A stretch of 35,332 nt of DNA, taken from assembly GCA_937930815.1 (NCBI GenBank), contig CALHBQ010000530.1, positions 1 through 35,332 of the forward strand, given 5' to 3'. Below, one piece after another: positions 18,696 to 22,626 of this stretch. A program made the position numbers and the translations under genes. The notes under the pieces are model-generated. The model saw only the letters and a program-made list of their open reading frames with translations, made no database searches and was not told the origin of the DNA. This DNA is from an uncultured Saprospiraceae bacterium. GTDB taxonomy: Bacteria; Bacteroidota; Bacteroidia; Chitinophagales; Saprospiraceae. How positions within the stretch are numbered: position 1 is the first letter of the stretch; each line of letters opens with the position of its first letter.

Positions 18696-19625
18696 CTAAC
18701 ACTTCACCACCCCTTCCTGATTAATCCGCGAAACATACAAATCACTCTCGATCTTATTATCAGAAAAGACTTTTTGCATGGCATTGGCTGCATTTTCAGC
18801 AACAAAAGTATTGGGACTTAAAGCAAAAATAGAAGGGCCCGCACCAGAAATACTGCAACCAAAAGCACCTTGAGCAAGTGCCGCATCTTTTACTTCTTGA
18901 AAGTGAGGAATCAGTTTCGCACGTTGTGGTTCGATAACGACATCTTGCATGCATTGACTCATTAGCTCAAAGTCAGCATTGTGGCAAGCGATGATGAAAC
19001 TTGCAAGGTTTGCACTTTGCTGTACCATGTTTTTCAAAGAAACAGTTTCAGAAAGAATGTTTCGAGAATCTTTCGTTAGAATCTCGATGTGTGGATAAAT
19101 GACGGTGGCCATCAACTCTTTTGGTGCCATGATTCGATGAACGGAATTTTCATTTCTACTAAAAATAATCCCTCCAATCAATGACGGCGCGACATTGTCT
19201 GCGTGGCGCGAACCAGAAGCCAACGCTTCTCCATCCAACGCAAAAGGCAAAAGCGCTCTCTTTTCTAAAGGGTTATTCAATAACATATTGACTGCGAAAG
19301 CACCTGCAACGGCACTTGCGGCACTACTCCCTAAACCAGATCCAAAAGGCATTTTTTTATGGATTTGCATATCAAGTCCCATATCTTCGAGACCGAGATG
19401 TTTGAGGACACTTAATGCAGCCAGACCTGCGGTATTTTTTTCTACTTCGTAAGGAAGTCTCCCTTTTGCTCCCGTGATTTTTGTAATTCGAAGACCTTTT
19501 CTATCGCTTGGCGTTAAGATGATTTCATCACCTGGACGCTCTAAAGCCAAACCTAAAGTATCAAATCCTACAATGCAATTTCCTACCGAAGCAGGCGCGA
19601 AAACTTTTATTCCTGTCATACCCAA
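18696..19625 (-). CDS. thrB: Homoserine kinase
   Basis: VFAPASVGNCIVGFDTLGLALERPGDE, KKMPFGSGLGSSAASAVAGAFAVN, FGCSISGAGPSIFAL (GHMP kinase). Confidence 0.95.
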   Translation of the reverse strand: MGMTGIKVFAPASVGNCIVGFDTLGLALERPGDEIILTPSDRKGLRITKITGAKGRLPYEVEKNTAGLAALSVLKHLGLEDMGLDMQIHKKMPFGSGLGSSAASAVAGAFAVNMLLNNPLEKRALLPFALDGEALASGSRHADNVAPSLIGGIIFSRNENSVHRIMAPKELMATVIYPHIEILTKDSRNILSETVSLKNMVQQSANLASFIIACHNADFELMSQCMQDVVIEPQRAKLIPHFQEVKDAALAQGAFGCSISGAGPSIFALSPNTFVAENAANAMQKVFSDNKIESDLYVSRINQEGVVKC

Positions 19626-19646
19626 AGTCGATTTACGGATGACGGG

Positions 19647-19686
19647 AGACGAATGACGGACGGAAAAGTCTGTCCGTCATTCGTCT
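19647..19686. repeat. 15-bp perfect inverted repeat in the thrA-thrB gap
   Basis: AGACGAATGACGGAC (19647-19661) and GTCCGTCATTCGTCT (19672-19686). Confidence 0.85.
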
Positions 19687-19707
19687 TTCGTTCGTCGTCG
19701 TTCGTTT

Positions 19708-19868
19708 AGAGCTTGTTTAAAGCTCTATCAATTGGCTACAAGTGGCAAATTTTATTCTGAATTTCGTTAAAAAGCCTCGTCGATGCTAAGGCATCGCCTA
19801 CGTTTTTTGCCTCATTCAAAACAAAATTTTCTCACTTTCACTCAATTATAGAACTTTAAACAAGCTCT
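19708..19868. repeat. ~161-bp palindromic element copy 1, abutting the thrA stop codon
   Basis: Terminal inverted repeats AGAGCTTGTTTAAAG / CTTTAAACAAGCTCT; central hairpin CGATGC-TAAG-GCATCG at the midpoint. Confidence 0.8.
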
Positions 19869-22324
19869 TATAATGAATTTCCTATTCTAACTATTTCTGC
19901 AAAAACGCCAGCAGCGGTCACTTCGGCACCTGCACCAGGGCCTGTAATTACCAACGGACGTTCTTTGTATCTTCCTGTTGTGAAAACGACCATATTATCA
20001 CTTCCACTCAACGTTGCGAACGGACTATTTTTCTCCACTTCTTCCAATCCAATCGTCGCTTTTCCGTTTTCTAACTTGGCAATCATGCGGAGCAATTTGC
20101 CTTTTTTATCGGCAGCTTGTCGCATCTTTTCCATGTTACCATCCTCGTTTTTCAACTCTTTGAAAAAAGCGGGAATTGACTTTGCATCCATCACTTTTTT
20201 CGGAAGAATAGAATTGATTTTCACATCTTCCGGTTCGAGTGCAATGCCCGTTTCTCGCGCAAGGATAACAATTTTACGTCGTACATCGAAACCGCTTAAA
20301 TCTTCGCGTGGGTCAGGTTCGGTGAAGCCTTTTTCTTTGGCTTCAGTTACGATGTCTGAGAACTTTCGACTTCCGTCAAAATTATTAAAAATAAAAGATA
20401 GCGAACCACTCAATACTCCTTCAATTTTTAAAATACGATCACCGCTCATATTCAAATCATTGAGCGTCGTGATGATGGGTAAACCTGCACCAACATTCGT
20501 TTCGTACATGAATTTCACTCCTCGTTTTTCAGCAATATTTTTCAATCGTTGATATTGAAGATAGGCGGATGAAGTGGCAATTTTATTGGGTGTAGAAATC
20601 GAGATGCTACTATCCAAAATCCGTTCATAAAACTTGGTAATGCCTTCGTGAGCTGTATTGTCGATAAAAATAGAGTTGGACATATTCATATCCACGACCA
20701 TTTCTTCAACGTATTGAGCGAGGTTGGCTTTTTTGTCAGATGCATCAAGTTGATCTTTCCAGTTTTCTAAATCAATGCCTTGCCAGTCGAGTAGCATTTT
20801 TTTAGAGTTGGAAAGTCCGACTACTTTTACTTCTATATTTTGTTCTTTTTTCAAATACTCAGTATGTTCTTTGATTTGGCGAATCAATGTTCCACCAATC
20901 AAACCCACACCGACCATGAAAATGTGAAGTGATTTTACATCAGAAAGGAAGAAGGTCTCGTGCATCGCATTCAATGCTTTTATCTCATCTGATTTTGGAA
21001 TCACGACAGAGATATTCAACTCCGAAGAGCCTTGAGCGATGGCCACGACATTGATACCATTATTACCCAACGACTGAAATAATTTGCCAGAAATCCCTGG
21101 TTGATAACGCATGTTTTCGCCGATGATCGCAACGATAGAAAGGTCGTCTTCGACTTTCACTTTGTTGATTACACCGCGTTCGATTTCGAATTCAAATTCT
21201 TTTTCGACGACTTTTTTCGCTTTCGCGGAATGAGCAGGTGCGACTGAAAAACTAATTGATGCCTCAGAAGAACCTTGGGTAATCAAAATGATATTGATAC
21301 CTGCTTGAGCGATTGCTGAAAACAAACGACTCGCCGTCCCAGTCACGCCAAACATCCCACTTCCCGAAAGGGTCAACAAAGAAATATTTCCAATAGAAGA
21401 AATTCCTTTAATCGGCCGATCAGTGCCATTTGAATCAGAAGAAATCAATGTTCCAGGATGATCTGGGTTGAAAGTATTTTTGGTAACGAGGGGAATATTC
21501 TTTTTTAACGCTGGCTGTAAAGTTGGCGGATAAATCACTTTCGCACCAAAATGCGCCATCTCCATCGCTTCCGCGTAACTCATTTTTGGAATTGTAAAAG
21601 CGCGTTTTACTTTTCTTGGGTCAGCGGTCAAAACGCCATCTACGTCTGTCCAGATTTCAATGATTTTTGCATCTAAACCTGCTGCCAATAAAGCAGCGGT
21701 ATAATCTGAACCACCGCGACCAAGTGTTGTGGTTAATCCATTTTTGGTAGAAGCAATAAAACCTGTAACCACTTGTACCTCTGGATTTTTATCGAAATGA
21801 TTGGCAATTTCTTTATAAGTCTTTTTGAAGTTGACTTTGGCTGAGCCGAAATTTTTATCTGTTTTGATCACCTTTCGAGCATCGAGGTAATTTGCTCTAA
21901 CGCCTTCTTGCGTCAGATATTTCGAAATGATAAACGAAGAATTTCGCTCTCCAAAACTCAATACATAATCCATCGTGCGTGGTGACGCTTCTCTTACGAG
22001 AAAAATTCCATGCAGCAAATCATGCAGCGTTTCGTGGTTTTCTTTGAGTTCTCTCAAAACCTCTTTTCGCAAATCACCTTTCAGCAGTTTTTTGACTGTT
22101 TCTTCGTGGCGTTGGCGAAATTCATTGAACTTTTCACCGTAGCATTTTTCTCCGCTGGAAGCGCGTCGCGCCATTTCAATCAAAGAATCTGTCACGCCGC
22201 CAAAAGCAGAGAAGACCACTGCGAATTTTTCGCCTTTCTTATAATAAGATTTGAGTATCTCTGCTAATTGCTTGATACGCTCCGGTTTACCAACCGAAGA
22301 ACCACCGAATTTTAATACTTTCAT
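19868..22324 (-). CDS. thrA: Bifunctional aspartate kinase / homoserine dehydrogenase I
   Basis: MKVLKFGGSSVGKPERI, TLGRGGSDYTAALLAAGL, ACT-region GVTGTASRLFSAIAQAGINIILITQ, HSD domain VGVGLIGGTLIRQI and YETNVGAGLPIITTLNDL. Confidence 0.97.
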   Translation of the reverse strand: MKVLKFGGSSVGKPERIKQLAEILKSYYKKGEKFAVVFSAFGGVTDSLIEMARRASSGEKCYGEKFNEFRQRHEETVKKLLKGDLRKEVLRELKENHETLHDLLHGIFLVREASPRTMDYVLSFGERNSSFIISKYLTQEGVRANYLDARKVIKTDKNFGSAKVNFKKTYKEIANHFDKNPEVQVVTGFIASTKNGLTTTLGRGGSDYTAALLAAGLDAKIIEIWTDVDGVLTADPRKVKRAFTIPKMSYAEAMEMAHFGAKVIYPPTLQPALKKNIPLVTKNTFNPDHPGTLISSDSNGTDRPIKGISSIGNISLLTLSGSGMFGVTGTASRLFSAIAQAGINIILITQGSSEASISFSVAPAHSAKAKKVVEKEFEFEIERGVINKVKVEDDLSIVAIIGENMRYQPGISGKLFQSLGNNGINVVAIAQGSSELNISVVIPKSDEIKALNAMHETFFLSDVKSLHIFMVGVGLIGGTLIRQIKEHTEYLKKEQNIEVKVVGLSNSKKMLLDWQGIDLENWKDQLDASDKKANLAQYVEEMVVDMNMSNSIFIDNTAHEGITKFYERILDSSISISTPNKIATSSAYLQYQRLKNIAEKRGVKFMYETNVGAGLPIITTLNDLNMSGDRILKIEGVLSGSLSFIFNNFDGSRKFSDIVTEAKEKGFTEPDPREDLSGFDVRRKIVILARETGIALEPEDVKINSILPKKVMDAKSIPAFFKELKNEDGNMEKMRQAADKKGKLLRMIAKLENGKATIGLEEVEKNSPFATLSGSDNMVVFTTGRYKERPLVITGPGAGAEVTAAGVFAEIVRIGNSL

Positions 22325-22466
22325 GGAGAGAGAGCTTGAAAAATATATTATAAATTTTTTAACTATGAGAGTGCAAACTTATTGCCAAATGGGGAGAGAT
22401 GAAAGTATGTGGACAAGTTTTTGATTTAAAAACGCATTATTTATATTTATCATTTGTTTTAATGAT

Positions 22467-22626
22467 GAAGTTGTTTAAAGTTTCATTTCAAACTGCAAAT
22501 TCACGCTTTAGAAACCTGAGATCAGCTTTTTAAAGAGCCATAGCGATGCTATGACTATTTAAAAACCGAATTTCAGAACTCTAAATCCTGAATTTTCGCT
22601 TCTGAACTAAAACTTTAAACAACTTC
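22467..22626. repeat. ~160-bp palindromic element copy 2, between thrA and the T9SS gene
   Basis: 17-bp perfect terminal inverted repeats GAAGTTGTTTAAAGTTT / AAACTTTAAACAACTTC; central hairpin CATAGC-GAT-GCTATG at the midpoint. Confidence 0.8.

Follow-up and report, generated by a model that had tools for sequence, protein, structure and literature searches.

How two palindromes of about 160 bp came to bracket thrA, and what they are, is the question raised by a window of 35,332 nucleotides (the whole stretch of DNA that was analyzed) from an uncultured Saprospiraceae bacterium. A preliminary description, made from the letters of the window, had read the pair as diverged copies of one full-length palindromic element, consistent with a MITE/REP-like family or a structured RNA. 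The features on which the argument turns are as follows.

19709..19867, unstranded: copy 1, a probable type I fold-back MITE of 159 bp, with ends GAGCTTGTTTAAAG...CTTTAAACAAGCTC
19709..19722, plus strand: left terminal inverted repeat of copy 1, GAGCTTGTTTAAAG
19781..19796, unstranded: apical hairpin of copy 1, CGATGC-TAAG-GCATCG
19854..19867, minus strand: right terminal inverted repeat of copy 1
19706..19708, unstranded: left target duplication of copy 1, TTA
19868..19870, minus strand: right target duplication of copy 1, TTA, doubling as the thrA stop codon TAA
22467..22626, unstranded: copy 2, a probable type II fold-back MITE of 160 bp, with ends GAAGTTGTTTAAAG...CTTTAAACAACTTC
22467..22483, plus strand: left terminal inverted repeat of copy 2, GAAGTTGTTTAAAGTTT
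22539..22553, unstranded: apical hairpin of copy 2, CATAGC-GAT-GCTATG
22610..22626, minus strand: right terminal inverted repeat of copy 2
19868..22324, minus strand: thrA, fused aspartokinase / homoserine dehydrogenase, between both copies (context, outside the elements)
18696..19625, minus strand: gene of a GHMP kinase (presumably thrB, homoserine kinase), oriented like thrA and lying downstream of copy 1 (context, outside the elements)

Both full-length palindromes proved real, albeit imperfect, with arms about 75-78% alike (61/81 aligned columns in copy 1 and 63/81 in copy 2) and perfect terminal repeats of 14-17 bp. The RNA folding energies of -58.4 kcal/mol for copy 1 (shuffles near -26) and -55.1 kcal/mol for copy 2 (shuffles near -22.5) each correspond to a z of -9.5 and were matched by no shuffle, and folding as ssDNA gave z values of -7.3 and -7.9, respectively. 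The small hairpins described at the two midpoints were found there, and the ends were placed correctly to within 1 bp, but the outermost pairs claimed belong to the flank, one pair of copy 1 being target-duplication sequence. Neither copy contains an ORF of at least 90 aa. Their interiors, described as diverged, have no detectable relation at all, i.e., a forced alignment of copy 1 with copy 2 was identical in 101/173 columns and BLAST of type I against type II interiors returned no match. Two minus-strand genes, thrA and that of the GHMP kinase (probably thrB), flank copy 1; copy 2 is flanked by thrA and a divergent gene whose product has a Por-type sorting domain. A second strong hairpin, ACGGGAGACGAATGACGGACGGA...TCTGTCCGTCATTCGTC, lies at 19642-19691 between copy 1 and thrB, with diverged hairpins of similar motifs at the same position in two other genomes of the genus (G003 and G004); its 12-mer GACGAATGACGG was tried as the mark of a high-copy repeat family and dismissed, as it occurs only 0-4 times per genome.

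The genus is represented by six draft genomes (G000-G005, of which G000 is the genome of the window), 64-88% complete. Type I matches numbered 22, 44, 55 and 16 in G000, G001, G004 and G003, and type II matches 23, 40, 7 and 9, counts that include fragments and both strands of one copy, with the best candidates per genome scored. The same search of G002 and G005 gave 0 matches of either type, G002 being devoid of a detectable copy although 87% complete. The exact ends GARSTTGTTTAAA occurred 25, 76, 63 and 6 times in G000, G001, G004 and G003, and their reversed control 0-2 times. Many type I copies of G001 carry GAAG ends like those of type II, and thus the two types share ends. In the same genome many contigs start or stop inside a type I element (e.g., C78:5-137, C2:5-137 and C90:10-136); near-identical copies have evidently broken the draft assembly, and copy numbers are underestimates. 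The exact long-gap end pattern that had been proposed for a genome search recovered, in G000, only the 2 sites already known, and 4 once both ends were shortened by their last base; the interior of one of these four, on C140, is unrelated. The preliminary description had allowed for two chance palindromes, to be recognized by a lack of further copies and of covariation; many copies in the genus, and covariation in the arms, were found.

Both ends persist in shortened copies of about 33-70 bp, from which slippage may have removed the center. Miniature derivatives were seen at L178 (401-470), L179 (401-453), L180, L188 and L189, and at least the first of these is flanked by a 3-bp duplication, AAA/AAA, so that very short forms may themselves move. 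A 26-bp insert, CCCGCCCGTCTGCCATCGGCGGACTG, at the same inner position in several type I elements of G000 and G004 (L033, L037, L108 and L111) marks a type I sub-lineage, and two further type I elements (L024 and L031) are 183-184 bp long, with an extra small hairpin, TTTGATGCTCTGGCATCAAGCAAACC, next to the center.

Mobility was evident at the flanks. Exact 3-bp direct repeats bound 43/142 automatically called genus elements (2-bp repeats 11, 4-bp repeats 2), and since these calls contain overlapping and spurious entries, the true share is probably higher; among the elements listed from other genomes the count was 76/112, with no 4-bp repeat. A good part of the copies has no exact duplication, and copy 2 is one such case, its flanking triplets GAT/AAT matching at 2/3 bases, perhaps as a degraded duplication. 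The one empty site that was read, for copy 1, bears out the suggestion to look for such sites in relatives: in G004 GGAAATTCATTATAA is followed directly by AACGAACG, and G000 has TTATAA, then copy 1, then TAAACGAACG, with TTA duplicated and a difference from the empty site of one A in an A-run. Upstream of thrA, G003 and G004 are too rearranged for a like reading of copy 2. As the TTA duplicated on the plus strand is TAA on the thrA strand, the thrA stop codon was re-created; stop codons as a general target were considered and discarded, with only 4/150 sites. When flanks were rejoined after removal of the element, an ORF of at least 100 aa ran across 15/89 genus sites vs. 132/178 (74%) control positions 280 bp away, and across 6/61 of the sites listed elsewhere vs. 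101/122 (83%) controls. Copy 1 and copy 2 are mobile elements, each belonging to a high-copy family of the genus.

The design is not confined to this genus. The pattern TTGTTTAAA-N(118-148)-TTTAAACAASYTC, run over a species-level genome collection, matched at least 112 stretches, and those listed are nearly all from Bacteroidota or MAGs so labeled, including Aquimarina, Saprospiraceae, Rufibacter, Saccharicrinis, Draconibacterium, Sinomicrobium, Aureivirga and Chitinophagales, together with several copies in one MAG labeled Chlorobiota. A few matches in Coxiellaceae, Peregrinibacteria and Calditrichaceae were rejected as members, for they have neither GAR ends nor duplications, pair poorly and look like chance. 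Among the matches listed, element length is mostly 152-165 bp (about 150-165 bp for the design overall), and mean arm identity is 73% vs. 57% shuffled, the excess being strongest at the ends and the interior averaging 68% vs. 56%. At the GAGC/GAGG-ended elements listed the duplicated triplets are mainly TAA, TTA, TCA and TGA, and at the GAAG/GAAC-ended ones ATT, TAT, AAT, ATA and others. When perfect-ended copies were counted, a 2.1-Mb Aquimarina bin had 70, Saprospiraceae SJ668 had 30 and Rufibacter had 16 (reversed control, 0). By interior sequence the matches listed fall into 28 sequence-unrelated clusters, 7 of which have a central TAGC-N(2-5)-GCTA core, ranking first among 256 tetramers, with the runner-up in 3 clusters. 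Sequence kinship reaches beyond the genus as well: type I has a relative at 84% identity in another Saprospiraceae MAG, and type II matches a Saccharicrinis element, collinearly, at 80% over 61 aligned bases, a likeness implying that the apical half was spread or kept across orders. The same ends, length and fold-back plan thus recur across Bacteroidota in sequence-unrelated clusters.

A candidate for the enzyme behind these insertions came from larger elements, insertion sequences of 854-952 bp that have matching ends and encode a transposase of the NCBIfam group transpos_IS5_3 (NF033580).

G019 (same taxonomic family as the window): insertion sequence L337, ends GAAGGTGTTTAAAA, duplication TAA/TAA
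G011 (same taxonomic family as the window): insertion sequences L338 and L349, ends GAGCRTGTCTAAA, duplication TTA/TTA
G023 (same taxonomic family as the window): insertion sequence L336, ends GAAGCCGTTTTAA, duplication TTA/TTA
Tenacibaculum: insertion sequence L310, ends GAGCCTGTTTAAA, duplication TTA/TTA
Aquimarina RZ0: insertion sequence L315, ends GAGTATGTTTAAA, duplication TAA/TAA

The proteins of L315, L310 and L324 scored 149, 127 and 115 bits against NF033580 (cut-off 110), which those of L336, L337, L338 and L349 also exceed. Aquimarina RZ0 in addition holds a MITE (L309) with ends GAGCATGTTTAAA / GAGTATGTTTAAA, nearly those of its insertion sequence. In the six genus genomes, incomplete drafts at 64-88%, autonomous insertion sequences with such ends were looked for and not found, and an IS5_3 search across 61 relatives gave no strong match from the genus; since no partner was found there, mobilization is taken to occur in trans. 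The PF01609 loci of the genus were considered as partner and set aside, as their ends differ.

Both copies are short (less than about 600 bp), non-coding and bounded by terminal inverted repeats, and the family has a target duplication of fixed length (3 bp; 2/3 bases for copy 2 itself), dispersed copies and an empty site, all as in a MITE. The GAG/GAA-type ends and the 3-bp TNA duplication, with other AT-rich triplets also at GAAG-ended copies, are those of an IS5-family derivative. Because ends that match, together with TTA/TAA duplications, occur in IS5-family insertion sequences elsewhere, the elements are best read as IS5-mobilized fold-back MITEs, the MITE half of the preliminary description being the one that held. 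In our judgment they are, with high probability, non-autonomous and moved by the IS5-family DDE transposase of a separate insertion sequence, the link from transposase to 160-bp element being deduced from ends and duplications. In the mechanism we envisage, a separate insertion sequence with ends GA[AG]nnTGTTTAAA would supply a transposase of the transpos_IS5_3 group, which would move or copy the elements in trans. Insertion would be at AT-rich triplets, of the form TNA where the element ends are GAGC/GAGG and less strictly defined where they are GAAG, and would leave a 3-bp duplication. Insertions within genes would be lost, so that surviving copies are intergenic, and copy 1 would have landed in the thrA stop codon, its duplication restoring the stop.

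Other origins were weighed against this one. With a folding z of about -9.5, genus-wide families, an empty site and duplications to account for, chance palindromes or unrelated terminators can practically be dismissed, and nothing apart from the intergenic position of both copies speaks for them. The apical hairpin of copy 1 is terminator-like on the plus strand only, opposite thrA, and a terminator role for it was considered and set aside; terminator-like sites in the region numbered 8 vs. 3.0 expected in shuffles. The imperfect intergenic hairpins, and the presence of Y1 transposase genes in 6/6 genus genomes, do recall REP/BIME-type palindromes moved by RAYT, or another Y1 (IS200/605-like) transposase, acting on a single-stranded hairpin. 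REP/RAYT and IS200/605 elements, however, make no target duplication, and here there are sharp 3-bp duplications, an empty site with its duplication and conserved inverted ends in the style of DDE elements. Nor do Y1 genes track the elements, as two strong Y1 genes occur in G002, which has 0 elements, whereas G001 has many elements and weak Y1 matches only. Given the target duplications and the distribution of Y1 genes, the REP-like suggestion is unsupported, and we consider it very improbable.

Whether the hairpin does something once inserted is a separate matter, i.e., the MITE might carry a working structured RNA in neighboring mRNAs (thrA-thrB in the case of copy 1), with its pairing under selection. 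The arms of type II speak for this most clearly. Across 43 copies, 89.7% of the 63 nested pairs are standard, 37/63 are changed on both sides (22.9 shuffled, sd 2.2), double-change cells number 232 (66.0 shuffled, sd 6.3) and the covariation score is 0.253 vs. 0.085 shuffled and at most 0.105 slid, although the shuffle test is inflated by related sequences and the alignment that was scored had also supplied the structure. At several sites three or four kinds of pair occur, indicating more than one event. Covariation is weaker in type I, and thus the idea that structure rather than sequence is conserved, for which a covariance check had been advised, stands within type II and in the phylum-wide design and is only modestly upheld within type I. 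Most of the double changes show no wobble intermediate, and whole blocks are often swapped, as conversion between the arms or a few diverging sub-lineages would give; arm covariation can be explained by selection or by such conversion. An RNA keeps G.U pairs, not A.C pairs, and one strand is often the richer in G.U: type II, in the plus-strand orientation of copy 2, has 64 G.U vs. 287 A.C, making the opposite (thrA sense) strand wobble-rich. The lean is absent from type I (168 vs. 139), and the other clusters listed lean either way (e.g., 5.8/2.3, 5.9/2.0 and 1.2/5.8 G.U/A.C per element), with a mild asymmetry overall (hand chi-square about 47, 28 degrees of freedom) that strand-biased deamination could cause, and as a sign of an RNA role it is suggestive only. 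The curated covariance models of Rfam gave no match. On balance a working RNA is unlikely, even with the apical TAGC...GCTA hairpin in 7/28 of the clusters listed. The fold may nonetheless be maintained, as RNA or as DNA, to judge from the strong covariation in type II, the weak covariation in type I and the apical hairpin of those 7 clusters. As a tentative possibility, there may be a phylum-wide 160-bp fold-back lineage in which the hairpin with TAGC...GCTA is selected as a working RNA or single-stranded DNA, for spread or for host-gene tuning, while the sequence is free to turn over.

Among known systems, the IS5-family insertion sequences of the NF033580 group found here, which we take to be IS1031-like by duplication type, share with the 160-bp elements the ends GA[AG]nnTGTTTAAA and 3-bp TTA/TAA duplications, but are 854-952 bp long and have a transposase gene. 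ERIC and Rickettsia palindromic elements, at about 130-150 bp, belong to other phyla and have other ends, and those of Rickettsia are known from in-frame gene insertions. Both are likewise dispersed palindromic repeats, as summarized in a review (PMC10969869). REPs too are palindromic, intergenic and numerous, but their units are 20-40 bp (PMC3733652). Within Bacteroidota, several MITEs of Porphyromonas gingivalis have been tied to IS5, namely BrickBuilt, MITE239, MITE464/PgRS and MITE700 (PMC4596501). They too are non-autonomous and intergenic, with ends that match IS5-family ISPg elements (e.g., GAGACTGTTGCA), but the end sequence is another, several are longer with tandem repeats, duplications are inconsistent and their description has no palindrome or hairpin (PMC4596501). 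MITECca01/02 of Cardinium, about 240 bp and present in many copies in a Bacteroidota genome, differ in having an IS982-family parent, ISCca4, and in being reported from one strain only (PMC9769881). A 2024 review of prokaryotic MITEs names, in the part that bears on this phylum, Porphyromonas and a spider endosymbiont, with no phylum-wide family mentioned there (PMC10969869).

In the open-access papers searched on Bacteroidota palindromic MITEs, on the end sequence and on Saprospiraceae, no earlier description of the 160-bp family was found. Bacteroidota MITEs in those papers are of single species only, whereas here one design, with fixed ends, near-fixed length, a full-length palindrome and a 3-bp duplication, spans several orders in sequence-unrelated families. 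The elements explain some of the breaks in draft assemblies, and they caution annotators that a hairpin of this kind is a mobile insertion and need not be a regulatory RNA. With them it can also be tested how palindromic MITEs come about, how they keep their palindromic form and how they are mobilized in trans.
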